The notes under the pieces were generated by a model. That model was not told the DNA's origin, did no database searches, and worked only from the letters and a program-made list of their open reading frames with translations. Positions 10,058-38,819 of a DNA stretch of 64,000 bases are shown in pieces; position 1 is the first letter of the stretch; each line of letters starts with the position of its first letter. The DNA lies in NCBI RefSeq assembly GCF_000300005.1, contig NC_018691.1:2170001-2234000 (forward strand), given 5' to 3'. This DNA is from Alloalcanivorax dieselolei B5 (GTDB lineage Bacteria; Pseudomonadota; Gammaproteobacteria; Pseudomonadales; Alcanivoracaceae). A program made the position numbers and the translations under genes.

Positions 10058-10077
10058 GGCACCTACGATGCACACCG

Positions 10078-10101: not shown

Positions 10102-10132
10102 TTCCCAGGGAAAGCTGCAGTTAAGGATCTAA

Positions 10133-19184: not shown

Positions 19185-19249
19185 GGAAGCTCCCCCTTTT
19201 TTTGGGAAAAGAGATTGGGAAAAGTCGCTGGAAAAACGGAATCAGGCTG

Positions 19250-19987: not shown

Positions 19988-20013
19988 ATCGTTCTCCACT
20001 TTATGCCGAGATG

Positions 20014-21051: not shown

Positions 21052-21333
21052 TCCGCACCCACCGTTGTTCTGGTTATGAGTCAATAGAGTAGCAGTGTCT
21101 CGACGTTGGGCGGCATCGTCGGAAGCGACGAAGCTGTTCTCCTGGCGGAAGCAGGCGCTGCTAAAGAAAAGGGTTCAGCGAGGAATAACGGGAATGGGGC
21201 TCTCCGTTCAGACCCGCATCGAGTGAACCGCGGCACTTTGGGCTCCACCCAACAACGCCGCTCGGCTGCCCGTGATGCGGAGTGATTTCGCTTCCCTTAA
21301 CGAAAAAGGGCGATGAATAATCGTCCGATGAAT

Positions 21334-22156: not shown

Positions 22157-23353
22157 TCAGATTACTCCCGCCTGTTGGAATTGTTCGATGTCGCCGTCAG
22201 CGTAGCCCAATTCGGTAAGAATGGCCGCGCTGTGTTCCCCCAGATCCGGTACTGCGTCCATGCGCGGTTCGAAAGCATTGCTGGCTCCGGGAGGAAGCAA
22301 GGCCGGCAGCGGCCCCTTGGGACTGCCAATCTCGGTCCAGCGCTGCCGGGCGGCCAGTTGCGGGTGCCGCCAGACGCCGTGCATATCGTTGACATGGGCA
22401 TTGGCAATGCGCGCGTCGTCGAGGCGGCGAATGACTTCCTCGGCGTCCAGCTCCGCGAAGACGCCAAGGATCAATGATTTTAGCGCTGCCCGGTTATGCA
22501 CCCGTTGGGAATTGGAAGCGAAACGTTCATCGTCGGCCAGTTCCGCCTGTAGCAGCACCTGTTCGCAGAACACTCGCCATTCCCGTTCATTCTGCAGCCC
22601 CAGCATCACGGTGCCGCCATCGCCGGTGTCGAATGGGCCGTAAGGATAGATAGTAGCGTGGGCGGCACCGGTGCGCGGCGGCGGTTCGGCGCCTTCGAAC
22701 GCGTAGTAGAGCGGGTAGTTCATCCATTCCACCAGACTCTCCAGCATGGAGACGTCGATACGACTGCCTTTGCTGGTGCTCTGGCGCAGCAGCAGAGCGT
22801 TGAGAATATGAGTGTAGGCGTACATACCGGCGGAAATGTCAGCGATGGAACAACCGGCCTTGGCCATGTCGTCCGAGGTGCCGGTGACGGACAGGAAGCC
22901 ACCCTCGCTCTGGATCAGAAGATCGTAGGCTTTCTTATCCTGGTAAGGACCGCCTTCGCCGTAACCGGAAATGTCGCAAACGATCAGTTTGGGGAAACGC
23001 TCATGCAGGGCGTCGAACGACAGTCCGAGGCGGGCGGCGGCGCCGGGAGCCAGGTTCTGCACCAGCACGTCGGCCTGTTCAAGCAGGCGTTCCAGTACCG
23101 GTGTGGCGGTATCGTGTTTCAGATCCAGCGTCAGGCTTTCCTTGGAGCGGTTGGTCCAGACAAAGTGGGAAGCCAGGCCGTGGACCCGTTCATCATAGCC
23201 ACGGGCGAAGTCGCCGACGCCGGGGCGCTCCACCTTGATCACCCGCGCGCCCATGTCCGCCAATTGGCGGGTACAGAACGGCGCGGCGATGGCATGCTCC
23301 AGGCTGACCACGGTAATGCCGTCCAGGGGCCGGGGCGAAACGGTAGTACTCAT
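22157..23353 (-). CDS. ict: CaiB/BaiF (family III) CoA-transferase, probable itaconate CoA-transferase
   Basis: This 398-residue protein is a class III CoA-transferase: LDGITVVSLEHAIAAPFCTRQLADMGARVIKVERP at the start, then the catalytic aspartate in KKAYDLLIQSEGG near residue 165. The ATG at 23353 gives MSTTVSPRPLDG, the normal start, whereas further upstream codons add an unlikely arginine-rich piece. It would move CoA from succinyl-CoA to a dicarboxylate. The neighbours (CitE-type lyase one base after, MmgE/PrpD, acyl-CoA dehydrogenase and MaoC-type hydratase before) fit the itaconate operon of P. aeruginosa. Substrate is inferred from that synteny. Confidence 0.75.
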   Translation of the reverse strand: MSTTVSPRPLDGITVVSLEHAIAAPFCTRQLADMGARVIKVERPGVGDFARGYDERVHGLASHFVWTNRSKESLTLDLKHDTATPVLERLLEQADVLVQNLAPGAAARLGLSFDALHERFPKLIVCDISGYGEGGPYQDKKAYDLLIQSEGGFLSVTGTSDDMAKAGCSIADISAGMYAYTHILNALLLRQSTSKGSRIDVSMLESLVEWMNYPLYYAFEGAEPPPRTGAAHATIYPYGPFDTGDGGTVMLGLQNEREWRVFCEQVLLQAELADDERFASNSQRVHNRAALKSLILGVFAELDAEEVIRRLDDARIANAHVNDMHGVWRHPQLAARQRWTEIGSPKGPLPALLPPGASNAFEPRMDAVPDLGEHSAAILTELGYADGDIEQFQQAGVI

Positions 23354-23421
23354 TCTTGTGCTCCTACAGCTGCGATGGGCGCTTTCTCTGGCAAGGGCAG
23401 GTCGGCGGCCCGCAATTCGAA

Positions 23422-24774
23422 TCAAATCAGGGGAGTGACGTTGTCGGCGTTGTGCAGCGTCCAGACCCGTTCGATGGCGGCGCCCATGGCGTCCTCGGAA
23501 AGGGTACCGGCGAAACGCGCCAGACGGCGGAACTTATCTTCCAGTTCCGCCCGGCTGAGGGTATTGCCGGGGTCACCTTTGGGTTCATCGATACTGCCGT
23601 GCAGGGTACGGCCGTCCCGCGTGACCACATCCACCCGGCCGAGCCAGCGCGCCGGGTAGGCGTTATCCACCTCCGCATCCAGCTGCATCGTGACCTTGTC
23701 ACGAAACGCGGCGACCGCGGCATCGTCCAGCGGGATCTGGTGGAACTCCGCCAGACCGGCATGGCCGTGCAGCGCAATCAGGCCCAGCACCGTTCCCATG
23801 GAAAACTTGGCCTGGTGGATGGTGGCGGGAACATCCACGCGGCCGAGTACATCGATGGCGCCCTGGTGCACCCGGGCGGTGACGGATTCGATGTCGTCCG
23901 CCTTGAGGTCGTGCTCCCGCATGACCGCCAGCAGGGCGTCCGCCGCCGGGTGAGTATGGCGGCAGGAAGCGTGGAACTTGAACGAGGTTTCCGACAGCGC
24001 CCAGCGTTCACCGAGGCGGTCATTGAGAAAACGGGAATCGGCATCCCGGGACAAACCGGCGGCGAGCCCTTGATCGCCTTCGAGGATATTGCGCGCTCCG
24101 GTCAGCCCGTCGGCGGTGAGACAGGCGGCCAGCACGCCATCCGCTGCTGCCTTGGCGGTGTGCAGTTGTTTGGAGTCGGCGGCGTCGCGCAGGAATTCCC
24201 ATAAGCCCGAGGCCTGGGTGCCGGCGCTGCCCAGCAGGTTGATGAAACCGTCCCGGTCCAGTCCCAGAATTTTGCCGGCGGCCACCGCCGCCGCCAAGGT
24301 ACCGACAGTGCCGGTGGTATGGAAAATGCGATAGTGGGAGCGGCCGAGAAATTCGCCGATGCGAATGCCGGCCTCGTAACCGGCCACCGAGGCGACGATC
24401 AAATCACGGCCGTTTTTGCCCTGTTCCTGAGCCATCGCCAGGGCGGCGGGGAACACCACCGTGGCCGGGTGCAGTACCGAGCTGTTGTGCAGATCGTCCT
24501 GTTCCACCACATGGGAAGCGGCACCGTTAACCAGCGCGGCGAAGTAGGCGGAAGTGTCGGTGCCGTCCACCAGATTCCGGGCCGGGCCGGAGGCGGGGCC
24601 CATGCGCCGTGCGTAACCGGCGAACAGAGGGATCGGGTGTTGACCGCTGCCGGCGATCAGGGATGCCAGCCAGTCGAGGAACAGGTCCTCGGTGCGGGCT
24701 ACCACCGCTTCCGGCAGATCCTCATAGCGCAGCTCGGCGAGAAACAAGGCCAGGGCCCGGGTTGCGTCGCTCAT
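23422..24774 (-). CDS. MmgE/PrpD family protein
   Basis: This 450-residue protein is of the MmgE/PrpD fold, which includes 2-methylcitrate dehydratase, cis-aconitate decarboxylase and iminodisuccinate epimerase. Visible family parts are LFLDWLASLIAGSG (residue 30), HVVEQDDLHNSSVLHPATVVFPAALA (residue 87) and FKFHASCRHTHPAADALL (residue 268). Members act on small branched or tricarboxylic acids without a cofactor. An MmgE/PrpD gene also sits in the P. aeruginosa itaconate cluster next to ict. Here it may isomerise or dehydrate a related dicarboxylate. The exact reaction is unknown. Confidence 0.85.
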   Translation of the reverse strand: MSDATRALALFLAELRYEDLPEAVVARTEDLFLDWLASLIAGSGQHPIPLFAGYARRMGPASGPARNLVDGTDTSAYFAALVNGAASHVVEQDDLHNSSVLHPATVVFPAALAMAQEQGKNGRDLIVASVAGYEAGIRIGEFLGRSHYRIFHTTGTVGTLAAAVAAGKILGLDRDGFINLLGSAGTQASGLWEFLRDAADSKQLHTAKAAADGVLAACLTADGLTGARNILEGDQGLAAGLSRDADSRFLNDRLGERWALSETSFKFHASCRHTHPAADALLAVMREHDLKADDIESVTARVHQGAIDVLGRVDVPATIHQAKFSMGTVLGLIALHGHAGLAEFHQIPLDDAAVAAFRDKVTMQLDAEVDNAYPARWLGRVDVVTRDGRTLHGSIDEPKGDPGNTLSRAELEDKFRRLARFAGTLSEDAMGAAIERVWTLHNADNVTPLI

Positions 24775-24797: not shown

Positions 24798-25961
24798 TTA
24801 GAAGGACCGTGGCAGGTCGAGCAGATGCTCGGCCACGTAAGAGAGAATCAGGTTGGTGGAAATCGGGGCCACCTGGTACAGGCGGGTTTCACGGAATTTC
24901 CGTTCCACGTCGTATTCGCAGGCGAAGCCGAAACCGCCGTGGGTTTGCAGGCACACGTTGGCGGCTTCCCAGGACGCCTTGGCCGCCAGGTATTTGGCCA
25001 TGTTGGCGGCGGCACCGGCATTGAGGCCGGAATCGTACTGCTCACAGGCCCGCCAGCGCATTAGGTCGGCGGCCTCCACTTCGATGTGCGCTTCGGCAAT
25101 GGGGAACTGAATGCCCTGGTTCTTGCCGATCGGGCGGCCGAACACCTCCCGGTCACAGGCGTAGCGGCTGGCCTTGTCGATGAACCAGCGGCCATCACCG
25201 ATGCACTCCGCGGCGATCAGCGTGCGCTCGGCGTTGAGGCCATCAAGGATATAGCGGAAGCCTTTGCCTTCCTCGCCGATCAGCGCCTCGGCGGGAATTT
25301 CCAGATTGTCGAAGAACAACTCATTGGTGACGTGATGCACCATGTTGGCGATGGGCTGGACCGTCATGCCATTGCCGATGGCCTGATGCAGATCCACCAG
25401 AAAGATGGACATACCGTCGGTTTTTTTCTTCACCTGATCCAACGGCGTGGTGCGCGCCAACAGGATCATCAGGTCGGAATGCTGAATGCGGGAGATCCAC
25501 ACTTTCTGGCCGTTGATCACATAACGATCGCCCTTGCGCACCGCGGTGGTCTTGATCTTGGTGGTGTCGGTGCCGGTGGTCGGCTCGGTGACCCCCATGG
25601 ACTGCAGGCGCAGCTCGCCGCGGGCGATACGCGGCAGATAATGATCCTTTTGCTCTGCGGAACCGTTGCGCAGCAGCGTGAACATGTTGTACATCTGACC
25701 ATGCACGGTGCCGGAGTTGCCGCCGCAGCGATTCACTTCTTCCAGAATCACCGAGGCTTCCGCCAGCCCCAGACCGGAACCGCCGTACTCCTCCGGGATC
25801 ATCGCCGCGAGCCATCCGGCCTGGGTCAGCGCGGTAACGAACTCTTCCGGGAAGTCCTGGCGTTCGTCGACGCCGCGCCAATAGGCGTCGTCGAATCCGG
25901 CGCACAGGCCGCGCACACCGTCGCGGATGGCATCCAGGGCTTCTTTATCGTACTGAATCAT
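24798..25961 (-). CDS. Acyl-CoA dehydrogenase of the itaconate-type operon
   Basis: This 387-residue acyl-CoA dehydrogenase has the usual segments: MIPEEYGGSGLGLAEAS near residue 54, LQSMGVTEPTTGTDTTKIKT near residue 115, YVINGQKVWISR near 145 and CLQTHGGFGFACEYDVERKFRE near the end. The TEPTTGTDTTK form matches a subgroup seen beside itaconate and CoA-transferase genes. Its ATG shares one base with the stop of the hydratase gene (TAATG). It probably desaturates a branched short-chain acyl-CoA or dicarboxylyl-CoA feeding the hydratase and lyase. The substrate is inferred. Confidence 0.88.
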   Translation of the reverse strand: MIQYDKEALDAIRDGVRGLCAGFDDAYWRGVDERQDFPEEFVTALTQAGWLAAMIPEEYGGSGLGLAEASVILEEVNRCGGNSGTVHGQMYNMFTLLRNGSAEQKDHYLPRIARGELRLQSMGVTEPTTGTDTTKIKTTAVRKGDRYVINGQKVWISRIQHSDLMILLARTTPLDQVKKKTDGMSIFLVDLHQAIGNGMTVQPIANMVHHVTNELFFDNLEIPAEALIGEEGKGFRYILDGLNAERTLIAAECIGDGRWFIDKASRYACDREVFGRPIGKNQGIQFPIAEAHIEVEAADLMRWRACEQYDSGLNAGAAANMAKYLAAKASWEAANVCLQTHGGFGFACEYDVERKFRETRLYQVAPISTNLILSYVAEHLLDLPRSF

Positions 25962-26797
25962 TAACGGGTCTCCTCGAATTCAACTTCACCGACATGGGCC
26001 TGGCCCTGTTCGTTGCCGGCCATGACCCGGGCAACCCCGGGGGACTCAATAACACCGCCGACCTGAAAAGGCTCAGGCGCGATCAACGGACGCATGCCCC
26101 GATAGCGGAATACCTTGGCGATTTTGTCCGGATTGGCCTGGTCAAACGCTCGCATCACCAGGGTGGCGATCAAAGGTCCGTGTACCACCAAGCCCGGATA
26201 GCCTTCTTCACCGGTGGTGTAGGGCCAGTCGTAATGGATGCGGTGGGAGTTGAAGGTCACCGCGGAATAGCGGAACAGCAGGGTGGCTTCCGGTTCAATG
26301 GTATCGGCCCATTGCAGCGCCGGCATGGGCTCACCGATGGAGGCCTTCAGCGGTACCGGCTCACGGTAAACGATGTCCTGCCGCTCACTCACTTTCTCCT
26401 CGTCATCCTGGAGGTAGCGGTGCCGCACGGTAATGAAGGTGAGTGAGCCGCTGCGGCCGTGTTTTTCCTTGATGTCCTCGATCCGGCTGTGTCGCCGTGC
26501 TGGCACGCCGGCACGCAATGGGCTGTTGAAACGCACTTCGCCGCCGGCCCACATACGTTGGCAGTCGCGAATCGGCGGCAGGAAATCACCGGGGAGGGGA
26601 TGGCCGTCCGGCCCCAGGGTGTCCATGCCGGAAACCGGTTGAAAGAATGCCCACTGCCACAGATGGGGAAGGGGGTCTCCGCTGCTCAGGGGGGCACCGC
26701 CAAGTGTGGCGGTCACCCGGGCCAGGGCGTGAAGGTCCAGACTGTCGTCCTGGATCTGCTCCTTGCCCAGCCATTTATTCGCGTTATCCAAGGCCAT
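25961..26797 (-). CDS. ich: MaoC/HTD2-type hydratase, probable itaconyl-CoA hydratase
   Basis: This 278-residue protein is a double-hotdog enzyme of the mesaconyl-C4-CoA/itaconyl-CoA hydratase (HTD2) group. The amino part has WQWAFFQPVSGMDTLGPDGHP near residue 50, where these enzymes begin their substrate tunnel. The catalytic hotdog motif lies near residue 195: YSAVTFNSHRIHYDWPY followed by GYPGLVVHGPLIATLV. ATG 26797 has CGGAG about nine bases upstream; a TTG 15 bases earlier is the alternative. It opens a five-gene minus-strand operon ending in a citramalyl-type lyase, the P. aeruginosa ich-ict-ccl logic. A double GTATAC palindrome lies about 105 bases upstream. Confidence 0.78.
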   Translation of the reverse strand: MALDNANKWLGKEQIQDDSLDLHALARVTATLGGAPLSSGDPLPHLWQWAFFQPVSGMDTLGPDGHPLPGDFLPPIRDCQRMWAGGEVRFNSPLRAGVPARRHSRIEDIKEKHGRSGSLTFITVRHRYLQDDEEKVSERQDIVYREPVPLKASIGEPMPALQWADTIEPEATLLFRYSAVTFNSHRIHYDWPYTTGEEGYPGLVVHGPLIATLVMRAFDQANPDKIAKVFRYRGMRPLIAPEPFQVGGVIESPGVARVMAGNEQGQAHVGEVEFEETR

Positions 26798-27100
26798 GCG
26801 CAGGCTCCGCAATAGATAAAAACAGGCATATAAAAAAGAAATCGGACTACCCGTGGGCTCGGCAGGGGAGTCACATCAAGAGAAGGAACCGATTTGCTTT
26901 TGTATACGGTATACAGTATACATTGATCGCGCAACAGGAAAGCGAGCCTGTCATTCTCTGATCCCGACGGGTTTGGCGAAAAAGTACAGAGACGCGCCGA
27001 CGGCTCCCCGTCAGTGTCGGATTCGGCCAAGCAAGGCAGGCGCTAACAACAAATACCAATGGTGGACCGGCCCGGTCTGGTTCCACCGCGGAGGATAGTG
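26798..27100. promoter_or_regulatory. Divergent promoter region with two overlapping GTATAC palindromes
   Basis: The 303-base gap separates the hydratase operon (minus) from the AraC-type gene (plus). Bases 26901-26915 read TGTATACGGTATACA, a perfect 15-base palindrome, and 26908-26922 form a second, overlapping one with one mismatch. The 14 bases GTATACAGTATACA recur in the GntR/thioesterase gap at 36589-36602. This is best read as the operator of the GntR regulator encoded at 35788-36474. No other gene is visible here. Confidence 0.75.
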
Positions 27101-28165
27101 ATGAATATCCGGTTTGACGGCTCGGCGATGACCACCAGTCATACCATTTCCATTCATCATGTGGAGCAAATGCTGGCGGGTGCGTGCCGACACGGCGTGG
27201 ACCCGGAGCCGGTGATGCAACGTGCCGGGATCCCGGTGCGGTTGCTGAAATCACCATTGTCCCGCGTCTCCCAGGACCAGTACGCGCGGCTGATGTACCT
27301 GTTGCGGCGTGATCTTCGCGATGAATTCTTCGGCCTGTGCAGCCACCCGGTGCCATTGGGGGCCTTCGCTCATATGTGCCAAGACCTGATCCAGTGCGAA
27401 ACCCTTGGCGATGCCTTGCGTCGTGGTTTCACGTTTTATCATTTATTGCTGAAGGACTTTGTGCCGCGTCTTGTGGTGCAAGGGGAAACCGCCCATGTGT
27501 GTGTCCGTGACCAAGGTGACGAGCCAGCCTGTCTGAGCTACGCCAAACGCATGTTCATGTTCTTCACCTGGGGCCTGGCGTCCTGGCTGGCGGCACGACG
27601 GATTCCCTTGCAGCAGGTGAGCTATCAGGACATGGGTGATGGCAAAAGCAATCGCATCCATTTGATTTTCGACGCGCCGTTGAAGGCCAACGACAACTGC
27701 TTCGGCTTCACCTTCGAATCGCGCTGGCTGGAGTTGCCGGTGGTGCAGAACCGTTTGAGCCTGACCTCCTTTCTGCGCCAGGCACCGGCCAACCTGTTGG
27801 TGCGTTATCGGGACGAAACCTCCTGCAGCGAGCGGATTCGCCGGCTGCTGCGCCGTCATCTGAGTTCCGGATTGCCAACCTTGGAAGAAGTCGGCTCGGT
27901 GCTGGGTATGACCCCGCAAACCGTGCGCCGGCGCCTGCGCGATGAAGGCCAGTGTTATCAAGGGTTGAAGGACAATCTGCGTTGCGATGCGGCGATCGAG
28001 TATCTGTCGCGCCCGGACCTGAACCTGGTGGACGTGGCGTCAAAGCTGGGTTTTTCCGAACTGAGCACCTTCCATCGCGCGTTCAAGAAATGGACCGGCC
28101 TGCCGCCGGGAGAATACCGCTACACCCGACTAAGGGCGGCGCGCCCCTATCTGAATATGCAATGA
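27101..28165 (+). CDS. AraC-family regulator with arabinose-binding-like N domain
   Basis: This 354-residue transcription factor has a long amino ligand domain of the type shared with OruR/ArgR-like AraC proteins (HHVEQMLAGACRHGVDPEPVMQRAGIP near residue 18; FTWGLASWLAARRIPLQQVSY near residue 150) and the AraC DNA-binding domain at residues 245-345 (LPTLEEVGSVLGMTPQTVRRRLRDEG, then DVASKLGFSELSTFHRAFKKWTGLPPGEYR). GGAGG precedes the ATG at 27101, which beats an upstream GTG/ATG. It leads the plus-strand acyl-CoA operon and is divergent from the itaconate-type operon, so it may activate one or both. Confidence 0.92.
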   Translation: MNIRFDGSAMTTSHTISIHHVEQMLAGACRHGVDPEPVMQRAGIPVRLLKSPLSRVSQDQYARLMYLLRRDLRDEFFGLCSHPVPLGAFAHMCQDLIQCETLGDALRRGFTFYHLLLKDFVPRLVVQGETAHVCVRDQGDEPACLSYAKRMFMFFTWGLASWLAARRIPLQQVSYQDMGDGKSNRIHLIFDAPLKANDNCFGFTFESRWLELPVVQNRLSLTSFLRQAPANLLVRYRDETSCSERIRRLLRRHLSSGLPTLEEVGSVLGMTPQTVRRRLRDEGQCYQGLKDNLRCDAAIEYLSRPDLNLVDVASKLGFSELSTFHRAFKKWTGLPPGEYRYTRLRAARPYLNMQ

Positions 28166-28378
28166 AGACAAGTATGCAATGCGGAAGCCGGCTTGGCCAA
28201 ATCCATCACCGCTGGCGGTGCGCGGGGTGCCTTGGAGAACAGAATGGCCAATGGTTTTGATGGTGATGGCCATTGGTCGTGCAGCGGCCGTTGGGCATGC
28301 TGAGTACAACAAAAACAGTCAACGGCGTGGTCAGGCACGTGCGAAGCGTGTAAGGGTCCCTTGCCAAGGAGAATACCA

Positions 28379-29536
28379 ATGACACAGTGGCAGCCCGCCT
28401 GGGTTGATGACGAGCTGAGAATTTTTCAGGATTCCGTGCGCAAGATTTTTGAGCGTGAGTTCGTCCCTCAGGAGGAAAAATGGCGCAAACAGCGCCGCCC
28501 GGATCATGAGGTCTGGCCCAAGCTGGGTGAGCTGGGCCTGCTGTGCGCGAGTATCCCGTCCGAGTATGGCGGTGGCGGCGGCACCTTCGCCCACGAGGCG
28601 GTGATCTGCATGGAGCAGGCCCGCGCCCAGGTGAGCAGCTTCAGCATCAGCGTGCACAGCGGCATCGTTTCTCACTACATTCTCAATTACGGCACCGAGG
28701 CGCAGCGCAAGAAATGGTTGCCGCAATTGGCCAGTGGTCAGCGGGTGGCCGCCATCGCCATGAGCGAGCCGGGCGCCGGCTCCGATTTGCAGGCCGTGCG
28801 CACCACCGCGCTGCGTGACGGTGATGAGTATGTGATTAACGGCTCCAAAACCTTTATCACCAACGGCTATCACGCCGAGCTGATCTGCGTGGTGGCGAAG
28901 ACCGACACCCAGGCCAAGGGCAGCCGCGGTATTTCCCTGGTAATGGTGGAGACGGATAAAGTCAGCGGTTTTCGCCGTGGGCGTATTCTGGAAAAAATCG
29001 GCCAGAAAGGGCAGGACACCGCGGAGTTGTTTTTCGATGAGGTACGGGTGCCGGCGGAGAATGTGCTGGGCGGCGCCGAGGGCAAGGGCTTCGTGCAATT
29101 GATGGAACAGCTGCCGCGCGAGCGTATGTTCATCGCCGTGGGCGCGGTGGCCACCATGCAGAAGGCCATTGATGAGACCACCGCCTATGTGAAGGACCGC
29201 AAGGTGTTCGGTCAGCGCCTGATGGATATGCAGAACACCCGGTTCAAATTGGCGGAGTGTCAGACCCAGGCGACGGTGGCCCGCTGTTTTGTCGATGACT
29301 GTGTCTACAAAGTCATGCGTGGCGAGCTGGACGTGCCCACCGCCGCCATGGCGAAGTGGTGGACCACGCAGTTGAACTGCCAGATCATCGATGAATGTCT
29401 GCAACTGCATGGCGGCTACGGGTACATGGAAGAGTATCCGATCTCGCGGATGTACACCGATGCCCGGGTGGGCAAGATCTATGGCGGCGCCAATGAGATC
29501 ATGAAGGAAATCATCGCCCGTTCCATGGATCAATGA
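28379..29536 (+). CDS. Acyl-CoA dehydrogenase
   Basis: This 385-residue FAD enzyme introduces a 2,3-double bond in an acyl-CoA. It shows SIPSEYGGGGGTFAHEAVICMEQAR near residue 60, IAMSEPGAGSDLQAVRTTA near residue 125, VINGSKTFITNG near 152 and LHGGYGYMEEYPISRMYTDARVGKIYGGANEIMKEII at the end, with the catalytic glutamate expected in the EEYPISR area as in long-chain/isovaleryl types. AAGGAG lies eight bases before the ATG at 28379. It is 213 bases after the AraC gene and 13 bases before an acyl-CoA ligase gene, as part of one plus-strand series. Confidence 0.9.
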   Translation: MTQWQPAWVDDELRIFQDSVRKIFEREFVPQEEKWRKQRRPDHEVWPKLGELGLLCASIPSEYGGGGGTFAHEAVICMEQARAQVSSFSISVHSGIVSHYILNYGTEAQRKKWLPQLASGQRVAAIAMSEPGAGSDLQAVRTTALRDGDEYVINGSKTFITNGYHAELICVVAKTDTQAKGSRGISLVMVETDKVSGFRRGRILEKIGQKGQDTAELFFDEVRVPAENVLGGAEGKGFVQLMEQLPRERMFIAVGAVATMQKAIDETTAYVKDRKVFGQRLMDMQNTRFKLAECQTQATVARCFVDDCVYKVMRGELDVPTAAMAKWWTTQLNCQIIDECLQLHGGYGYMEEYPISRMYTDARVGKIYGGANEIMKEIIARSMDQ

Positions 29537-29549
29537 CGGGAGCGCATCG

Positions 29550-31247
29550 ATGACCTCTCCTCACCTGTCTTTCTATCCGAAAGGATTGCCCGAGCGGATT
29601 CGCGCTCCGCAAACCACGCTGGTGGGTAACCTGCGTATTTCTGCTTCGCGTTACCCGGATCGGCCGGCGTTGGTGTTTTACAACGGCGTGCTGAGCTATC
29701 ACGATCTGCAGCGGGACGTCCGGCGCATGGCCGGCTATCTGCAACAAGAGTGCGGCGTGACCAAGGGTGATCGCGTACTGCTCTACACTCAGAACTGCCC
29801 GCAGTTCACCGTTGCCTTCTACGCGGTGATGTCGCTGGGGGCGGCGGTGGTGCCGGTCAATGCCATGAGCACCCATGAGGAACTGGGCTACTATTTCGAA
29901 AATAGCGGCGCCCGTCTGGCGTTTTGCGCCGCCGACCTCTACAGCAATCTGCGCCCCTGTGTGGACAGCGGCCTGGTTACCCGGGTGATTTTGCATCAGT
30001 ACCGGGATTACCTGAACGATCCGCGAGATCCGCTGGTCCCGGGCTGGATCGCGGTGGAGCAGGACGAAGTGACGGATCCGGCGGTGGTGACCTGGGCCGA
30101 AGCTCTGGCCGCGGAACAGACTCCGATGCCGGCCGCCTTTGACGCCGATCAGATGTGTGTGCTGCCTTACACCTCCGGTACCACCGGTCACCCCAAGGGG
30201 TGCATCCATACTCACCGCACTCTCGGATACGCTATTTATTCCTCGTCGTTGTGGCGTGCTCTCAGTGCCGAGTCGGTGTTTCTGTCGGTGGCGCCGATGT
30301 TCCACATGCTGGGTCTGCAAAGCGGCATGAACATGCCGATTCTCCTGGGCGCCACCACGGTGATTTTGCCGCGCTGGGATCGGGATATGGCGGCGCGGCT
30401 GATCGACCAGTGGGGTGTCAGTGTGTGGGGCGCGCCGCCGGCGATGGTCATCGACTTCTTCGCCAAGCCGGATATCGCCGACTATGACCTGTCGCGCCTG
30501 AGCTTGATCTTTGGCGGTGGCGCGGCGATGCCGGAAGCGGTATCGCGGACCTTGAAGGATGACCACGGGATCACGTTCAACGAATCCTATGGTCTGACCG
30601 AGACCTCCGCTTTTTTGCACGCCAATCCGGTGCACCGTAACAAACGCCAGTGCCTGGGGGTGCCCACCTTTGGCGTGGAGTCCCGTGTGGTCGATCCGGA
30701 AACCCTGGAACCCTTGCCGCGGGGCGAAGTGGGCGAGCTGATCACCAGCGGACCACAGGTGATGGAAGGGTACTGGCACAACGACGCGGCCAACCGTGAG
30801 TCTTTTCTTGAACGCGATGGCCGCCGTTTTTTCCGTACCGGTGATCTGGCCTGTATCGATGAGGACGGCTACTTCTTCATGAAGGACCGGCTCAAGCGCA
30901 TGATCAACGTGTCCGGCTATAAAGTCTGGCCGGCGGAAGTGGAAAATTTCATGTATGACCATCCGGCGGTTCAGGAGGCCTGTGTCATTGGTGTACCGGA
31001 CAGCCGCCGTGGTGAAGTGGTCATGGCGATTCTGGTTCTTAAAGAGCGGTATCGCGGCCAGGCCAGCGAAGAGCAGGTGATCGACTGGGCGCGGGAAAAA
31101 ATGGCGGTGTACAAGGCACCCCGCCGGGTGGAATTCGTCGATGCCTTACCGAAGTCCGGCGCCGGCAAGATCCTCTGGCGTCAGCTACAGGACGAACAGC
31201 GGGCGCTGGTTGGCGACGGTGATGTTGTGGCGGCCGGGGACGCGTGA
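29550..31247 (+). CDS. Acyl-CoA ligase (AMP-forming, long-chain type)
   Basis: This 565-residue adenylate-forming enzyme activates a carboxylic acid with ATP and CoA. The phosphate-binding loop is YTSGTTGHPKGCIHTH near residue 208, the A5 region is NESYGLTETSAFLH near 345, the A7/A8 hinge is FRTGDLACIDEDGYFFMKDRLKRMINVSGYKVWPAEVE near 430, and the catalytic lysine follows in PKSGAGKILWR near 535. Length and motifs match long-chain fatty acid-CoA ligases. It lies between an acyl-CoA dehydrogenase and a DUF35 protein, so it probably feeds this operon. The chain type is unknown. Confidence 0.92.
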   Translation: MTSPHLSFYPKGLPERIRAPQTTLVGNLRISASRYPDRPALVFYNGVLSYHDLQRDVRRMAGYLQQECGVTKGDRVLLYTQNCPQFTVAFYAVMSLGAAVVPVNAMSTHEELGYYFENSGARLAFCAADLYSNLRPCVDSGLVTRVILHQYRDYLNDPRDPLVPGWIAVEQDEVTDPAVVTWAEALAAEQTPMPAAFDADQMCVLPYTSGTTGHPKGCIHTHRTLGYAIYSSSLWRALSAESVFLSVAPMFHMLGLQSGMNMPILLGATTVILPRWDRDMAARLIDQWGVSVWGAPPAMVIDFFAKPDIADYDLSRLSLIFGGGAAMPEAVSRTLKDDHGITFNESYGLTETSAFLHANPVHRNKRQCLGVPTFGVESRVVDPETLEPLPRGEVGELITSGPQVMEGYWHNDAANRESFLERDGRRFFRTGDLACIDEDGYFFMKDRLKRMINVSGYKVWPAEVENFMYDHPAVQEACVIGVPDSRRGEVVMAILVLKERYRGQASEEQVIDWAREKMAVYKAPRRVEFVDALPKSGAGKILWRQLQDEQRALVGDGDVVAAGDA

Positions 31248-31307
31248 TCGGACGATTCGCCGGGTGGCCTTGCCACCGGGCTGGCAGTAATGACGAGGAG
31301 AGCAAAC

Positions 31308-31697
31308 ATGGTTAACCAAGAAGGTGGCGTGCAGGCCATCTATCAGGCGGCCCTGGATCAGGGGCGTTTCGAGATTCAACGCTGCAATGATTGTGGTGAT
31401 GCGGTGTTCTTTCCACGTGAACTGTGCCCCGGTTGTGGCAGCGGCGACCTGTCGTGGTTCAGCCCCAGCGGCAAGGGGACGGTCTATGCGGTGACCACGG
31501 TGCGGCGCAAACCGGAAGCCGGTGGTGACTACAACGTCTCTTTGATAGATCTTGAAGAAAACGTCCGGCTGATGAGCCGGATTGAAAACGCGGCCCCGGA
31601 AGAAGTGAAAATCGGCATGGCGGTGAAAGCCCGGGTGGCGGTCAATGAGGGGCGTGGCGTGTTGGTGTTTCATGCGATGGAAGGAGCGGCACAATGA
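31308..31697 (+). CDS. DUF35 OB-fold/zinc-ribbon protein (aldolase partner)
   Basis: This 129-residue protein has a rubredoxin-like zinc ribbon with four cysteines (RCNDCGDAVFFPRELCPGCGSG, the two pairs 15 residues apart, near residues 26-44) followed by an OB fold. Such DUF35 proteins bind acyl-CoA and form complexes with thiolase-like aldolases, as ChsH2 does with Ltp2. It overlaps the next gene by four bases (ATGA), and that gene encodes just such a thiolase-like protein. GAGGAG lies before the ATG at 31308, so I prefer this to the ATG at 31290. It is likely a required subunit rather than an enzyme. Confidence 0.9.
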   Translation: MVNQEGGVQAIYQAALDQGRFEIQRCNDCGDAVFFPRELCPGCGSGDLSWFSPSGKGTVYAVTTVRRKPEAGGDYNVSLIDLEENVRLMSRIENAAPEEVKIGMAVKARVAVNEGRGVLVFHAMEGAAQ

Positions 31698-32872
31698 GCG
31701 GTGATCTGAATCATTTGCGCGGCAAATTCGCCATCGCCGGCGTGGCCACCTTCGGGTGTGGCGAGGCACCGGGCTATACCGACATGGAACTGCTGGCCCA
31801 GGCCGCGCGCCTGGCGGTGGCCGATGCCGGCCTGACCATGAAGGACATCGACGGTTTGTGCACCGCCAGTGCTTCATCCGCCATGTGGTCGATGCCGGTG
31901 GTGGAGTATCTGGGGATCCGCCCCCGTTTCGTCGACGCCACCATGATCGGCGGTTCCAGTTTCATCGCCCATCTGATGCCGGCGATGCAGGCACTGGAGT
32001 CCGGTCAGTGTGACGCGGTGCTGGTGGCCTACGGCAGCGCCCAGCGCACCTCCACATTGAGCCGCAAGGAAATTGGCAAGGCCCGTCTGCTGATGGACCC
32101 GCAACCCTACGAGCATCCTTATCAACCGATGCTGCCGATGTCGGCGTATGCGCTGGCGGCTTCCCGCCATATGCATGAGTTCGGCACCACCCGCCGGCAA
32201 CTGGCGCAAGTGGCGGTGTCGGCGCGCCAATGGGCGCGGAAGAATCCGGACGCGTTCATGCGTGATCCGCTGACAGTGGACGATGTGCTCAATGCGCGCA
32301 TGGTGTCCGATCCACTGACCGTGCGCGATGCCTGTCTGGTCACCGATGGCGGCGGCGCCTACGTATTGGTGCGCGCCGACCGCGCCCGCGATTTGCCGCA
32401 GCCGCCAGTGTATGTGCTCGGCCAGGGTACGGCGGTGTGGAATCGGCAAATCTCCAGCATGGCGGATCTGACCGTTACCGCCGCCACGCAATCCGGGCGT
32501 GACGCTTACGCCATGGCCGGAATGGGACCCAAGGACATTAATGTGGCGGAGCTCTACGACGCTTTCACCATCAATACTTTGTTGTTCCTGGAAGACCTCG
32601 GATTCTGCGCCAAGGGCGAAGCCGGGGCTTTCGTGGAGGACGGTCACATCGCCCCCGGTGGCAGCCTGCCGGTGAACACCAATGGCGGCGGCTTGTCCTG
32701 GGGCCACCCGGGTATGTACGGCATTTTCGCCGCCATCGAGGGCGTCCGTCAGTTGCGTGGTAACGCTGGAGACAGCCAGGTCGCCGGTGCGCAAACTGCG
32801 ATCGTGCATGGCAACGGCGGCACGCTGTCCAGTCAGTCCACCGCCATTCTGGGTACCGCCGCGGCGCTGTGA
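31694..32872 (+). CDS. Thiolase-like lipid-transfer protein, probable Ltp2-type retro-aldolase
   Basis: This 392-residue protein has the thiolase fold but lacks the usual nucleophilic cysteine: the expected site reads MIGGSSFIAHLM near residue 93. It keeps ELYDAFTIN near residue 283 and GHPGMYG near residue 338, including the two tyrosines that act in Ltp2-type aldolases. Such enzymes cleave beta-hydroxyacyl-CoA thioesters of branched or steroid side chains, giving a ketone and a shorter acyl-CoA. The overlapping DUF35 gene just upstream supports this. I consider true thiolase activity unlikely. The substrate is not visible from sequence. Confidence 0.85.
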   Translation: MSGDLNHLRGKFAIAGVATFGCGEAPGYTDMELLAQAARLAVADAGLTMKDIDGLCTASASSAMWSMPVVEYLGIRPRFVDATMIGGSSFIAHLMPAMQALESGQCDAVLVAYGSAQRTSTLSRKEIGKARLLMDPQPYEHPYQPMLPMSAYALAASRHMHEFGTTRRQLAQVAVSARQWARKNPDAFMRDPLTVDDVLNARMVSDPLTVRDACLVTDGGGAYVLVRADRARDLPQPPVYVLGQGTAVWNRQISSMADLTVTAATQSGRDAYAMAGMGPKDINVAELYDAFTINTLLFLEDLGFCAKGEAGAFVEDGHIAPGGSLPVNTNGGGLSWGHPGMYGIFAAIEGVRQLRGNAGDSQVAGAQTAIVHGNGGTLSSQSTAILGTAAAL

Positions 32873-32914
32873 GGCGCTGATTATTCAAGGCGGCAATGCC
32901 GCCGGGAGGCCATC

Positions 32915-34066
32915 ATGATACGTGATCAGGAAACCATGAATACGCTGTTGGACACGATCAACCGTTTCGTGCGCGAACGGCTGGTGCCCAACGAGGAATG
33001 GGTGGCGGAGCACGACGCCATCCCCGAGGACATCGTCAGGGAGATGAAGGCGATCGGTCTGTTCGGGCTGACCATCCCCGAGGAATTCGGCGGCCTCGGT
33101 CTGACCATGGAAGAGGAAGTGCTGGTGATGTTCGAGATGGGACGCACCTCACCGGCGTTCCGTTCGTTGTTCGGCACCACCGTGGGAATCGGTTCCCAGG
33201 GGATCCTGATGGACGGTACCGATGAGCAGAAACAGCAATGGTTGCCATCTCTGGCCACCGGTGAGGTGATGGCGTCGTTCGCGCTGACCGAACCGGGGGC
33301 CGGTTCCGATGCCGCTTCCCTGCGGACCAGTGCGGTGAGGGACGGCGATCACTATGTGGTGAACGGCACCAAACGCTTTATCACCAACGCGCCGCAGGCC
33401 GGTATTTTTACCTTGATGGCGCGTACCGATCCGGAGGTGAAAGGCGCGGGCGGCATTTCCGCGTTTATCGTCGACGCCAAAACTCCGGGAATCTCGCTGG
33501 GTAAACCGGACAGTAAAATGGGCCAGAAAGGCGCCCATACCTGTGATGTGGTGTTCGAGGACTGCCGGGTGCCGGCGGCCAACATCATCGGTGGCAAGCC
33601 TGGCGTCGGTTTCAAGACCGCCATGAAAGTGCTGGATAAAGGGCGGATTCATATCGCCGCCATCTGTGTCGGCGTTGCCGAACGGATGCTGGACGATGCT
33701 CTCCGCTATGCCGCTGAACGCGAGCAGTTCGGCCAGGCCATTGGTGAATTCCAGCTGGTACAGGCGATGCTGGCCGACAGCAAGGCGGAGATCTACGCCT
33801 CTCGTTGCATGGTGCTGGATGCGGCCCGGCGCCGGGATAATGGCGAAAACGTCAGTACCGAAGCCGCCTGCTGCAAGATGTACGCCTCGGAAATGTGCGG
33901 TCGTGTGGCGGACCGCGCGGTGCAGATTCACGGTGGCGCCGGCTATATGTCCGAGTACGGCATCGAACGGTTTTACCGTGACGTGCGGCTGTTCCGTATC
34001 TATGAAGGCACCACTCAGATTCAACAAATCGTCATCGCGCGCAATATGTTACGCGCGGTGCGTTAG
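32915..34066 (+). CDS. Acyl-CoA dehydrogenase
   Basis: This 383-residue acyl-CoA dehydrogenase has TIPEEFGGLGLTMEEEVLVMFEMGR near residue 50, FALTEPGAGSDAASLRTSAVRDGDHYVVNG near residue 120 and VQIHGGAGYMSEYGIERFYRDVRLFRIYEGTTQIQQIVIARNM at the end, all standard. GGGAGG precedes the ATG at 32915. It lies after the aldolase and before a second acyl-CoA ligase, so the operon has two dehydrogenases that could serve two steps or two chain lengths. No hydratase gene lies on this strand; the MaoC-type hydratase is in the divergent operon. Confidence 0.9.
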   Translation: MIRDQETMNTLLDTINRFVRERLVPNEEWVAEHDAIPEDIVREMKAIGLFGLTIPEEFGGLGLTMEEEVLVMFEMGRTSPAFRSLFGTTVGIGSQGILMDGTDEQKQQWLPSLATGEVMASFALTEPGAGSDAASLRTSAVRDGDHYVVNGTKRFITNAPQAGIFTLMARTDPEVKGAGGISAFIVDAKTPGISLGKPDSKMGQKGAHTCDVVFEDCRVPAANIIGGKPGVGFKTAMKVLDKGRIHIAAICVGVAERMLDDALRYAAEREQFGQAIGEFQLVQAMLADSKAEIYASRCMVLDAARRRDNGENVSTEAACCKMYASEMCGRVADRAVQIHGGAGYMSEYGIERFYRDVRLFRIYEGTTQIQQIVIARNMLRAVR

Positions 34067-34193
34067 CAGTTCGCTCTCCACGCATGGCGGTGGGCCAACC
34101 GTCGTGCGTGCTTTTTATTCCGCCTCACAGGTGAATCATGTCTGACCACGATATTGTTGCTCATGCCCGTTGCCGGGCAGGGGAGTATCGCCC

Positions 34194-35765
34194 ATGTATC
34201 TGACCCAGGGGTTGCATCGCGCGGCGCAGCAGGCGCCGGAACGCCTGGCCACGGTGGATGGCGAACGCCGCCGCAGCTATCGCGAGCTGGCTGACCGTTG
34301 CGCCCGGCTGGCCGGTGGGCTCACTGGCCTGGGCGTACAGGCCGGAGACCGGGTGGCGATATTGGCCGCCAACTGCGATTACCACGCCGAGTATTTTCTT
34401 GGCTTGTGGTGGATGGGCGCGGTGGCCAATGCCGTGAATACCCGCTGGAACGTGAAGGAGATGGCGTACTCTCTCAACGATAGCGAAGCGGAGATACTGC
34501 TGGTCAGCGACGCTTTCCTGCCGATGGTGGACACGCTCAAGGCGCGGTGTCCGGGGCTGCGCCATGTTCTGCATCTGGGGGAGACGCCATCTACCCAGAC
34601 AGATGGGCCTGCGGGAATGATTCACTACGAGGATTTTCTGGCGCGGGCGACGCCGGTGGAAGATGGCCGCTTCGGCGGTGACCACCTGGCGGTGCTGCTG
34701 TATACCGGCGGCACCACCGGCTTTCCCAAAGGCGTGATGCTTTCCCATGACAATCTCTGGAGCTGCGCCATCAGCCGCTTGGCGGAAAGCGACCCGCCTG
34801 ATCCGTTCGTCACCTTGTTGGTGTCTCCGCTGTTCCATACCGCCGGCGTTGCCAAATTCATCACCCAGATTGTGGTGGGCGGCACCGCGGTGATGATGCC
34901 GTCCTTCCGCGTGGAGGCGGTGCTGGCCGCCATCGAGCGGGAAAAGATCACCGATGTGATTCTGGTGCCAAGCATGATTCAGATGCTGGTGGATCACCCC
35001 AAGGTGCGGGAACACGATTTGAGCTCCCTGACACGGGTCGCCTACGGTGCCTCGCCCATCTCCCTGCCGGTGCTGGAACGGGCCCTGGCGGTGTTTCCCG
35101 ATGCCCAGTTCACTCATACCTACGGTATGACCGAGGCATCGCCGATGATCACACTGAACTCCTGGCGTAATCACCGTGGCGAGGCCTTGAACAACGGCCG
35201 CATCCGTTCCGCCGGCAAAGCCACCTGGGGCATGGAAGTACGCATCGTCGACGAGGACGACCGGGAAGTGCCCCGGGGCACCGTGGGGGAGGTGGTGGCG
35301 CGGGGAGACAACGTCATGCTGGGCTATTGGAACAATCCGGACGCCACCGCGGAAACCCTGCGCGGCGGCTGGTTGCATACCGGCGATGGCGGTTACATGG
35401 ATGAGGACGGCTACATCTACATCGTCGACCGCATAAAGGACATGATCGTCAGCGGCGGTGAGAACGTGTACTGCGCGGAAGTGGAAAACGTGCTGGCCCG
35501 GCATCCGGCGGTGGCCAGTTGCGCGGTGATCGGCATTCCCCATGACACCTGGGGGGAGAGCGTGCACGCGGTGGTGGTGACGCAATCCGGCGTTGAGGTG
35601 TCCGCCGAGGAACTGACCGATTTCTGCCGCGATGATCTGGCCGGTTACAAGTGTCCGCGTTCGGTGGAATTCCGCGACAGCCTGCCGTTGTCCGGCGCCG
35701 GCAAGGTGCTCAAGCAAGAGCTGCGGGAGCCCTATTGGCGGGGCCGTGCCCGCCGGGTGTCCTGA
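34194..35765 (+). CDS. Acyl-CoA ligase (AMP-forming)
   Basis: This 523-residue adenylate-forming ligase has the loop LYTGGTTGFPKGVMLSHDN near residue 168, FTHTYGMTEASPMITLN near residue 305, WLHTGDGGYMDEDGYIYIVDRIKDMIVSGGENVYCAEVE near 395 and the catalytic lysine in GAGKVLKQEL near the end. It is strongly similar to the ligase at 54910-56460, so the two are paralogues. I chose the ATG at 34194 with GGGAG upstream over an earlier ATG at 34170. It ends the plus-strand series and converges on the GntR gene across 22 bases. Confidence 0.9.
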   Translation: MYLTQGLHRAAQQAPERLATVDGERRRSYRELADRCARLAGGLTGLGVQAGDRVAILAANCDYHAEYFLGLWWMGAVANAVNTRWNVKEMAYSLNDSEAEILLVSDAFLPMVDTLKARCPGLRHVLHLGETPSTQTDGPAGMIHYEDFLARATPVEDGRFGGDHLAVLLYTGGTTGFPKGVMLSHDNLWSCAISRLAESDPPDPFVTLLVSPLFHTAGVAKFITQIVVGGTAVMMPSFRVEAVLAAIEREKITDVILVPSMIQMLVDHPKVREHDLSSLTRVAYGASPISLPVLERALAVFPDAQFTHTYGMTEASPMITLNSWRNHRGEALNNGRIRSAGKATWGMEVRIVDEDDREVPRGTVGEVVARGDNVMLGYWNNPDATAETLRGGWLHTGDGGYMDEDGYIYIVDRIKDMIVSGGENVYCAEVENVLARHPAVASCAVIGIPHDTWGESVHAVVVTQSGVEVSAEELTDFCRDDLAGYKCPRSVEFRDSLPLSGAGKVLKQELREPYWRGRARRVS

Positions 35766-35787
35766 CCGGCGCGATCTCGTTCCCCGT

Positions 35788-36474
35788 TCAACGCAACCCG
35801 GCGCCGCCGCTGGAGACATGGGCCAGCAGCCCTTCACCGGCGGCGGCGATATGACGGCGCATGGCCTCGGCCGCCGCTGCGGCGTCACCGGCGCGTAATG
35901 CCCGGACGATGGCCCAGTGCTCCTGGCTGGATTCCGCCATGCGGTTCTCGATGGTGATCGGCGTCAGTGGTGGCACCCCCTGCCAGAGGGTGAGGACGAT
36001 TTTCTGGGTGCGCGGTTGATTGGCGGCATCGTAGAGCACCCGGTGAAAACGCTGATTGAGTGCCACATAGGCGGCGGAGTCGCCATCATCGGCGGCCTGG
36101 TCCATGTCCTGTTGCAACTGCTCCAGCTCGTCCAGTTCCTCGTCACCGAGTTGGGGACAGGCCTGGGCCACCATGTGGCCTTCCAGCAGTTCGCGCAGGG
36201 CGTAGATTTCCTTGACGTCATCGACGCCGAAGGAACTGACCCGATAAGCGCCCCGGCCCTCGGTCTCCACCAGGCCGTCCGCCTCCAGCCGGCGTAACGC
36301 GTCACGCACCGGGATGCGGCTGGTACCGAAACGCTTGGCCAGGTCCTCCTGCACCAGGCGTTCGCCGCCGGCGATGTCCCCGCGCAGGATCGCTTCGCGC
36401 ATGCGTATGTAGACTTCCTCCTCCATGGAGCGGCGGCGGACGGGAGCGAAAGGGTCGGTTTGGGTTCGCGGCAT
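35788..36474 (-). CDS. GntR-family regulator with FCD domain
   Basis: This 228-residue regulator has a winged helix at residues 15-80 (REAILRGDIAGGERLVQEDLAKRFGTSRIPVRDALRRLEADGLVETEGRGAYR, the GntR pattern) and an all-helical FCD ligand domain at about 90-218 with metal-binding histidines (NQRFHRVLYDAA near residue 145; MRRHIAAAGEG near 208). FCD regulators respond to small carboxylic acids and often repress their own cluster. It is divergent from a thioesterase gene, with a perfect GTATAC palindrome between, and the same site occurs in the promoter of the itaconate-type operon. I infer local and distal control of both. Confidence 0.93.
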   Translation of the reverse strand: MPRTQTDPFAPVRRRSMEEEVYIRMREAILRGDIAGGERLVQEDLAKRFGTSRIPVRDALRRLEADGLVETEGRGAYRVSSFGVDDVKEIYALRELLEGHMVAQACPQLGDEELDELEQLQQDMDQAADDGDSAAYVALNQRFHRVLYDAANQPRTQKIVLTLWQGVPPLTPITIENRMAESSQEHWAIVRALRAGDAAAAAEAMRRHIAAAGEGLLAHVSSGGAGLR

Positions 36475-36587
36475 AGTGTGTTTCTCAAACGCTAAGACAG
36501 TGTTTTCCCGAGTGATGGCGGGAGTTTACAGGATTTACCCGCTTCCGGCCCGGTGCAAGGGAGCGGCGGCCAGCGTGGTTCGTCTAC

Positions 36588-36602
36588 TGTATACAGTATA
36601 CA
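36588..36602. promoter_or_regulatory. Probable GntR operator palindrome
   Basis: TGTATACAGTATACA is a perfect 15-base palindrome centred at 36595. It lies 114 bases before the GntR start and 74 before the thioesterase start. It shares 14 contiguous bases with 26909-26922. Confidence 0.75.
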
Positions 36603-36675: not shown

Positions 36676-37086
36676 ATGAGCTGGACTCGCGAAGACGAAA
36701 TCAACTGGACCAACAACAATCCCTTCCGTTGCCACCTTGGCATCAAGATCAATTGGGTCAACGACGATGGCGGCTCCGAAATCGCCTTGCCGGTTACTCC
36801 TGAGCTGCTACAGGCCTACGGCATGGTGCATGGCGGCATTTATTGCGTGCTGATCGACACCGTGTTGGGCACCTGCGTGCGTGCCTACCATCAACGCGAC
36901 GCCGGCCCGATCACGGTGGATCTCAATGTCAGCTTCCTGCGGCCCACCGGGCAGGGGGAGATCGTCTGCCGTGGCGAGATCATCAAGGCCGGCCGCAAGG
37001 TCATGGTCGGCAGCGCCGATGTGCTCGACGCCGAAGGCCGCAAGCTGGCCACCGGTCGCGGTTCCTTCCTGATGCGTAACGAGTAG
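36676..37086 (+). CDS. PaaI-type hotdog thioesterase
   Basis: This 136-residue single-hotdog protein has the acyl-CoA thioesterase pattern, including AYGMVHGGIYCVLIDTVLG near residue 39, where the HGG loop and the following aspartate/glutamate-type position form the active site, and ITVDLNVSFLRPTGQGEIVCRGEI near residue 76. It should release CoA from small or aromatic acyl-CoAs, protecting the CoA pool. The ATG at 36676 is preceded by GGAGAGCGCAGG. It is divergent from the GntR regulator and shares the palindromic operator with it, so it probably belongs to the same catabolic regulon. Confidence 0.88.
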   Translation: MSWTREDEINWTNNNPFRCHLGIKINWVNDDGGSEIALPVTPELLQAYGMVHGGIYCVLIDTVLGTCVRAYHQRDAGPITVDLNVSFLRPTGQGEIVCRGEIIKAGRKVMVGSADVLDAEGRKLATGRGSFLMRNE

Positions 37087-38780: not shown

Positions 38781-38819
38781 TGTGGTGAGTCTCGTTGACG
38801 AGCTTGCTGGCGATAGCGC

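Follow-up and report, generated by a model that had tools for sequence, protein, structure and literature searches.

A GntR/FCD regulator and its predicted GTATAC operator arrays at an itaconate-type operon of Alloalcanivorax dieselolei B5

Two divergent promoter regions, lying 9.7 kb apart in a stretch of 64,000 nucleotides (nt) of Alloalcanivorax dieselolei B5 (NC_018691.1; this whole stretch is called the window), carry the same palindromic sequence, one beside a gene for a GntR regulator with an FCD effector domain and the other before an operon which begins with a MaoC-type hydratase gene. The question raised by this locus is whether the regulator, the repeated sequence and the operon belong together and, if so, how far the regulon extends. 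From comparison of the sequences, the GntR/FCD protein is considered to be a local regulator of the MaoC operon acting via arrays of the hexamer GTATAC, and the predicted switch is very likely real. The operator layout is uncommon within a well-known regulator family, and the supported core of the regulon is the five-gene MaoC operon, the rest being lineage-dependent. The elements concerned are as follows, where CoA is coenzyme A and the scores of the operators are explained below.

26902..26921, no strand: operator O1, GTATAC-G-GTATAC-A-GTATAC, 18/18, between the MaoC operon and the AraC gene
36582..36601, no strand: operator O2, GTCTAC-T-GTATAC-A-GTATAC, 17/18, first unit degenerate, between the GntR gene (minus strand) and the thioesterase gene (plus strand)
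35788..36474, minus: GntR family regulator with FCD effector domain, 228 amino acids, Pfam PF00392 and PF07729, predicted binder of O1 and O2
36676..37086, plus: hotdog-fold thioesterase (4HBT), beside O2
25961..26797, minus: itaconyl-CoA hydratase-like protein (Ich type, MaoC), first gene of the target operon, matching 8khg; its open reading frame (ORF) is listed to 26812 with a TTG start, and an ATG is at 26797
24798..25961, minus: acyl-CoA dehydrogenase, at the position of PA0879 (methylsuccinyl-CoA dehydrogenase) by the gene order of PA0878-PA0883
23422..24774, minus: MmgE/PrpD protein, at the position of PA0881 (methylsuccinate isomerase) by gene order and solved relatives
22157..23425, minus: family III CoA transferase, at the position of Ict (PA0882) as judged from its family and the gene order
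21334..22155, minus: CitE/HpcH-type lyase, in the place of Ccl (PA0883), matching 8khl and 9nzb

The GTATAC arrays of the window

The first-pass annotation had placed a palindrome between the GntR/FCD and thioesterase genes and overlapping copies, sharing 14 contiguous bases with it, at the other promoter. The palindrome at 36588-36602 (TGTATACAGTATACA) lies exactly there, and the 14 bases (GTATACAGTATACA) common to it and to the sequence at 26901-26922 (TGTATACGGTATACAGTATACA) can be read directly. A genome-wide scan, which had been set beforehand as the test, found the exact palindrome TGTATACNGTATACA at these two promoters only in the genome of B5 (G000; 4,928,223 bases, one contig), and the Markov expectation at the composition of the window is 0.0008 in 4.93 Mb. 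Allowing up to three mismatches, the window has five matches against a mean of 0.37 and a largest count of 2 in 100 shuffles; four of them are O1 and O2 in overlapping registers, and the fifth, at 41701, has three mismatches. Allowing up to two mismatches, the whole genome has eight matches, four at O1 and O2 and four elsewhere, and the control used for pattern scans, that is, the palindrome or array pattern read backwards, has two. One of the four sites elsewhere (G000:C1:2729630-2729644, L007) falls where a zinc alcohol dehydrogenase frame begins and may be either an additional target of minor weight or a sign of kinship alone; the other three are in or beside frames which have no assigned family or fell outside the family scan, and none of these is claimed as a target.

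To the left of the palindrome at 36588 there is a degenerate third unit, which was missing from the earlier listing. The array score was defined as the number of bases matching three GTATAC units at a 7-bp period (maximum 18), and at O1 and O2 the other periods from 6 to 12 all score 12 or less. Among 5,000 random 250-bp samples drawn from the window and from four loci of G028 and G032, two genomes of a sister genus, 4,991 scored 12 or less and nine scored 17-18; the nine fell on the operators, because no score of at least 13 is found outside the operators in those sequences. The loci fetched for array scoring and hexamer spacing amount to 471,538 bases in all. In these, all scores of at least 15 are at the promoters described in this paper, a score of at least 13 is found elsewhere once (a 14 at L047:11982), and the GTATAC pairs no more than 60 bp apart are, in 29 of 29 cases, at exactly 7 bp (21 pairs) or 14 bp (8 pairs). 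Since the third hexamer is kept in place and all pairs are 7 or 14 bp apart, and since the FCD relative Atu1419 binds a single GTATAC-centred 10-mer, the 15-bp palindrome was set aside as the recognition unit in favour of a GTATAC array of 7-bp period; the sites of the first-pass annotation are real, and it is the unit which has to be read differently.

Arrays and regulator in related and remote genomes

The comparison set comprised 143 genomes, B5 included, and GntR orthologs were accepted at E <= 1e-45. Such an ortholog is present in nine genomes at 59-100% identity (the copy of G006 is cut by a contig end), namely the close group of the window (G000, G006, G007 and G008), three more genomes of the same genus (G001, G003 and G012) and two of the sister genus (G014 and G025, a genus to which G028 and G032 belong too). 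The exact palindrome is found in seven of the 143, all among these nine, the remaining two being G014 and G025. An array stands before the MaoC gene in 9/9, scoring 18/18 in seven and 16/18, in degenerate form, in G014 and G025. In the flanking 50 bases, only 19 (G003), 17 (G012), 19 (G001), 16 (G014) and 15 (G025) match the window, that is, 30-38% identity, whereas the hexamers keep 18/18 of their bases in G003, G012 and G001 and 16/18 in G014 and G025. The close relatives say little on the conservation of the array because their flanks have barely diverged, 46 (G006), 49 (G007) and 41 (G008) of the 50 bases being kept.

A replication was obtained far outside the family. The GntR alignment, run against 84,980 species genomes, gave ten loci: seven Alcanivorax/Alloalcanivorax contigs, two remote proteins (28 and 30% identical, with best array scores of 13 and 11) and “bacterium HR32”, an unclassified member of the Bacteria, whose GntR ortholog is 45% identical. 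In HR32 an array of 16/18 (L060:3063-3082) separates the GntR gene, with its ATG at 3094, from a divergent pair of fumarase-type genes, behind which come genes for an acyl-CoA dehydrogenase (ACAD, 64%) and for a CoA transferase cut by the contig end (63% over 184 residues), and another array of 15/18 (L060:8800) stands before a PrpD-like gene (31%). Matches with up to three mismatches occur at those two places alone in the 2.1-Mb assembly (three registers; control 0), and 200 simulations of the 11.6-kb locus never gave a score over 13. Because this locus was found by GntR protein similarity alone, its arrays are a blind confirmation. A MaoC homolog was not found on the 11.6-kb contig. The first-pass annotation had joined a single GntR/FCD regulator, a single operator and the hydratase/lyase operon into one unit, and this is supported by the genome scan, the relatives and HR32. 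The presence of the same pair in so remote an organism suggests either an old link or a transfer as a module. At the contig end, HR32 also has a second GntR-type gene (L060:11277-11573; its remaining part is 40% identical), located downstream of a gene resembling those for isocitrate/isopropylmalate dehydrogenases.

The AraC-type protein (27059-28165), rather than GntR, might be supposed to bind the arrays, as in the window O1 adjoins its gene, and all nine GntR genomes have an ortholog of it. This is very unlikely. G028 and G032 have the AraC ortholog (59 and 57%, respectively), the MaoC operon, the OB protein and the thiolase, but neither has a GntR ortholog (the best matches, 32 and 33% identical, are elsewhere in the genome) or a triple array genome-wide with up to three mismatches. 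The AraC gene of G032 looks intact, a stop closing its 353-residue frame. AraC was rejected as the binder because AraC and the MaoC operon persist in these two genomes without the array. Moreover, the AraC gene is beside O1 in G000, G006, G007 and G008 alone and away from the array in G001, G003, G012, G014 and G025; HR32 has arrays and GntR with no AraC homolog in the 11.6-kb contig, to which the AraC search was confined; and the site of an FCD regulator, Atu1419, has GTATAC at its core. G064 has MaoC (50%), no GntR ortholog and no array.

Several observations weigh against the assignment of the arrays to a GntR switch of the MaoC operon, or narrow its basis. The nine positive genomes make about four lineages in our own grouping, and support comes from about four family lineages and HR32 rather than from nine separate events. 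Within the genus, seven genomes have GntR and 6/13 do not, and in these six the MaoC and AraC orthologs are likewise missing at the cut-offs applied; the genus-level co-occurrence is therefore confounded and is not used as proof. In G028 and G032 the MaoC gene follows an upstream CoA transferase gene without a gap and the whole promoter region is absent, which limits the argument from these genomes, yet AraC is still separated from the array. Upstream of GntR, the array is strong (15-17/18) in five of the nine genomes (17 in G000, G006 and G007, 16 in G008 and 15 in G001) and missing or minimal in four, where G003 and G012 score 11 and keep one hexamer, and G025 (10) and G014 (9) are at the background level; on this point the first-pass reading is not fully supported. 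With up to three mismatches, the backwards control gave 3 matches in G012 and 1 in G021. G006 and G007 each have one weak triple site (three mismatches) outside the cluster, similar to the 2729630 site of B5, counterparts which show little because these are close relatives. A scan for sigma-70 detected no sigma-70-like promoter at O1 or O2.

Finally, the exact triple array is found in 22 stretches of a viral collection (L064-L085), twice in one, and this would favour the view that the similarity of O1 and O2 is due to chance or to a mobile repeat without regulatory meaning. Next to no credence is given to that view. The expectation per genome is far below one (see above), the exact triple array occurs in 1/369 genomes sampled across the class, which is that of the window itself, and the arrays are kept in place across lineages despite the diverged flanks. 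The view is already contradicted by the placement of the arrays, the G028/G032 contrast and HR32.

The GntR/FCD protein and its known relatives

The protein belongs to the FCD subfamily of the GntR superfamily, since it matches PF00392 with 56.8 bits and PF07729 with 113.3 bits, both over the cut-off. An AlphaFold2 model, a single chain built from 7 sequences and used for the fold class alone, has a mean pLDDT of 82.4, with residues 1-11 of low confidence, and its C-terminal helices are 84-108, 111-129, 133-151, 154-165, 179-194 and 198-221, plus a short one at 172-176. The model has no extra helix after the linker, as is expected of the VanR group, to which the protein probably belongs; the top structure matches are McbR, a Brucella GntR protein, Atu1419 and PmiR, and some high-ranking ones are labelled VanR. 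By sequence, the best match among solved chains for the single window protein is PmiR of P. aeruginosa (PDB 7xp0 and 7xp1; 26-27% identical), which senses 2-methylisocitrate according to the title of its paper.

Each GTATAC unit is GT-AT-AC and fits the FCD operator consensus, a GT-(2-3 nt)-AC dyad including a 2-nt class (PMC4494728), with a 2-nt spacer. Atu1419 of Agrobacterium fabrum (PDB 6z74, 6za3 and 6za7), a VanR-group FCD repressor, binds ATGTATACAT with one dimer per palindrome (PMC7797058). It shares the FCD/GntR fold with the window protein (the structure match shows about 28% identity), its site has the GTATAC core, and, like the regulator proposed here, it is self-regulated and acts on a catabolic cluster. 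In Atu1419, Arg45 reads guanine, Asn137/His141/His192/His214 hold zinc, and Arg86 and Tyr133 are among the contacts of the bound citrate (PMC7797058). In the alignment, Arg45, Arg86 and Tyr133 correspond to R53, R94 and Y136 of the window GntR and the zinc residues to N140/H144/H186/H208, and all of these are invariant in 7/7 aligned orthologs. The latter four are kept in HR32 too, and at the residue level they make up a putative D/N-H-H-H metal site; HR32 has F in place of Y136. The recognition segment is GTSRIPVRDALRRLE in the window GntR and GTSRLPVRDALRRLE in that of HR32. Because the citrate-contacting and zinc-site residues of Atu1419 correspond to invariant residues here, a small polycarboxylate can reasonably be inferred as the ligand, with which the TctA/TctC transporter genes within the clusters of G001, G003 and G025 and a DcaP-type porin gene of the sister genus agree. 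However, the palindromes of Atu1419 are single and 109-190 bp apart, and its tetramer can loop, whereas the hexamers of the window are packed every 7 bp; also, the proposed effector of Atu1419 is methylenetetrahydrofolate, and its pathway is a different one.

In its layout, the array resembles the operator of NanR, an FCD-type regulator of E. coli, which is (GGTATA)3, that is, three tandem hexamers occupied by three dimers together (PMC8012715); O1 likewise has three tandem hexamers at a fixed spacing. On the other hand, GGTATA is not self-palindromic, unlike GTATAC, and the pathway of NanR is that of sialic acid. In addition, about 10 residues of the window GntR precede the part which aligns from NanR residue 26 on, and it is not filed as a NanR type because it has no N-terminal extension, which in NanR joins the dimers, of NanR length; cooperative binding through another contact is possible. 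Ten-bp sites of the Atu1419 type placed every 7 bp overlap the neighbour by 3 bp, and outer units 14 bp apart do not overlap, so the packed dimers may either cooperate on different faces or occupy competing registers. Weaker additional boxes are located 7-12 nt from the site centres in 13 groups of the FadR subfamily (PMC4494728), and the array may be regarded as an extreme case of this tendency. AlkR of P. aeruginosa SJTD-1 is alike in being a VanR-group FCD repressor in a hydrocarbon degrader, but its site is ATTGTCAGACAAT, with one main palindrome, and it is released by long-chain acyl-CoA.

The proposed mechanism is as follows. The GntR dimer would bind GTATAC hexamers (GT-2 nt-AC), three at O1 and two to three at O2. 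It would most likely be a repressor, so that occupancy of O1 would shut the hydratase/dehydrogenase/PrpD/CoA transferase/lyase operon and, in this lineage, would probably also silence the divergent AraC-led unit, while occupancy of O2 would control the GntR gene itself and the thioesterase. Release would probably follow when a small di- or tricarboxylate of the pathway, similar to methylsuccinate, mesaconate, itaconate or citramalate, occupies N140/H144/H186/H208. An activator, or a switch between activation and repression dependent on the ligand, has a precedent in CitO, an FCD regulator which activates with citrate (PMC4746285); it is nevertheless improbable here, Atu1419, NanR and AlkR being repressors, and the distances of the O1 centre, some 115 bp to the start of MaoC and 147 bp to araC, decide nothing. 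The 7-bp array offers a natural case for how many FCD dimers pack on overlapping sites, and the switch may be of use as a dicarboxylate biosensor.

Predicted pathway and extent of the regulon

From O1 the minus-strand operon runs in the order of MaoC-type hydratase, acyl-CoA dehydrogenase, MmgE/PrpD, family III CoA transferase and CitE-type lyase. The hydratase matches 8khg, named itaconyl-CoA hydratase, with 315.6 bits; for the lyase the matches are 8khl and 9nzb (acyl-CoA lyase beta chain by name), with 234 bits. The best solved relative of the PrpD protein is IDS epimerase, followed by cis-aconitate decarboxylases, and the closest structure for PA0881 is IDS epimerase as well (PMC9875883). 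For the acyl-CoA dehydrogenase no solved chain was found at E <= 1e-60. The assignment of the CoA transferase to Ict rests on gene order and family, since YfdE and further family III transferases are nearest to it among solved structures. An itaconate degradation operon (ict-ich-ccl) is marked by the joint presence of genes for hydratase, CoA transferase and lyase, and the present operon is predicted to be one. The cluster PA0878-PA0883 of P. aeruginosa has the same kinds of genes in the same order (PA0878, PA0879, PA0881, PA0882 and PA0883; PMC9875883), and PA0878-PA0886 enabled P. putida to grow on itaconate, methylsuccinate, citramalate and mesaconate (PMC9875883). The PA0880 lactonase and the PA0884-6 transporter of P. 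aeruginosa have no counterpart in the window operon.

ItcR of other species is a LysR-type itaconate regulator. RipR, the itaconate regulator of Salmonella, is of LysR type (PMC9637912), whereas the regulator proposed here is of GntR/FCD type. The regulators found among the scanned proteins of the cluster and its neighbours are of the AraC, GntR and XRE types, the window frames having been partly scanned and the rest of the genome unsearched for LysR. Among the listed titles and opening lines of abstracts from open-licence PubMed Central, no paper stood out as tying a GntR protein to an itaconate/methylsuccinate operon or to an Alcanivorax/Alloalcanivorax cluster, and the available text of PMC12290011, on the Pseudomonas cluster, is without the words “GntR”, “LysR”, “regulator” or “Alcanivorax”. 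It is tentatively suggested, at rather less than even chances, that an old pair of FCD protein and 7-bp GTATAC array controls the catabolism of branched C5 dicarboxylates (methylsuccinate/mesaconate/itaconate) in remote bacteria, where it would stand in for LysR regulators, with several dimers packed per array in a mode which the papers cited here do not describe. The present results define a testable regulator, operator and target set for an itaconate-type acid pathway in hydrocarbon degraders.

The genes between O1 and the GntR gene make up the divergent unit.

27059..28165, plus: AraC-type regulator (PF12625 and HTH_18), first gene of the divergent unit, target status uncertain
28361..29536, plus: acyl-CoA dehydrogenase ACAD_c
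29550..31247, plus: AMP-binding enzyme AMP1, acyl-CoA ligase type
31290..31697, plus: ChsH2-type zinc ribbon/OB protein
31694..32872, plus: thiolase family protein
32915..34066, plus: acyl-CoA dehydrogenase ACAD_d
34170..35765, plus: AMP-binding enzyme AMP2, acyl-CoA ligase type, convergent with GntR

Whether this unit belongs to the regulon depends on the lineage. In G001, G003 and G012 an SDR gene, followed by OB and thiolase genes, diverges from MaoC at O1, and the AraC gene is elsewhere in the cluster; the SDR gene at L040:10810-11727 is 86% identical to that of G001. G014 and G025 have no array of at least 13 between AraC and AMP2. The AraC operon, which had been counted as a probable member, does adjoin O1 in four genomes but is at most a lineage-specific one. 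It is quite possible, if somewhat short of an even bet, that GntR controls the MaoC operon alone (and itself in some lineages), the AraC-led unit and the thioesterase being bystanders which share the intergenic regions. The MaoC promoter is indeed the sole place with the array in 9/9, and the genomes differ both in the GntR-promoter array and in the gene diverging at O1; against this, O1 lies between MaoC and a divergent gene in 7/7 same-genus genomes (AraC in four, SDR in three) and can therefore serve both sides. In the 40 kb fetched around the GntR gene of G012, no thioesterase gene was found. In G014 and G025 the genome-wide triple-array sites with up to three mismatches are solely before MaoC and before the DcaP-type porin gene. 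This porin gene, just beyond the thioesterase gene in the sister genus, is preceded by a degenerate array of up to four units (L050:15481-15515 and L053:1192-1232).

The regulon had been put at about 15 genes, and the count is 14 (5 + 7 + GntR + thioesterase); the next genes (17970-21084) look separate. These form an ACAD-SDR-APH group on the minus strand, about 250 bp from the lyase gene, and are probably a separate unit because the group was undetected beside the MaoC operon in G003, G012 and G025. From this group an XRE regulator gene with an MLTR ligand domain (17128, plus) diverges. On the other side, a gene for an ArsA/GET3-type ATPase adjoins that for a CstA-like transporter (37764-40780); the pair, undetected in the stretches fetched from G014 and G025, is beside the GntR locus in all six same-genus relatives with GntR. 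Farther off, a plus-strand ORF of 1,621 amino acids (5192-10057), with a frame of 1,656 amino acids opposite, precedes genes of the outer-membrane efflux, ABC and HlyD kinds (to 14978), and this arrangement (5192-14978) resembles a type I secretion cluster.

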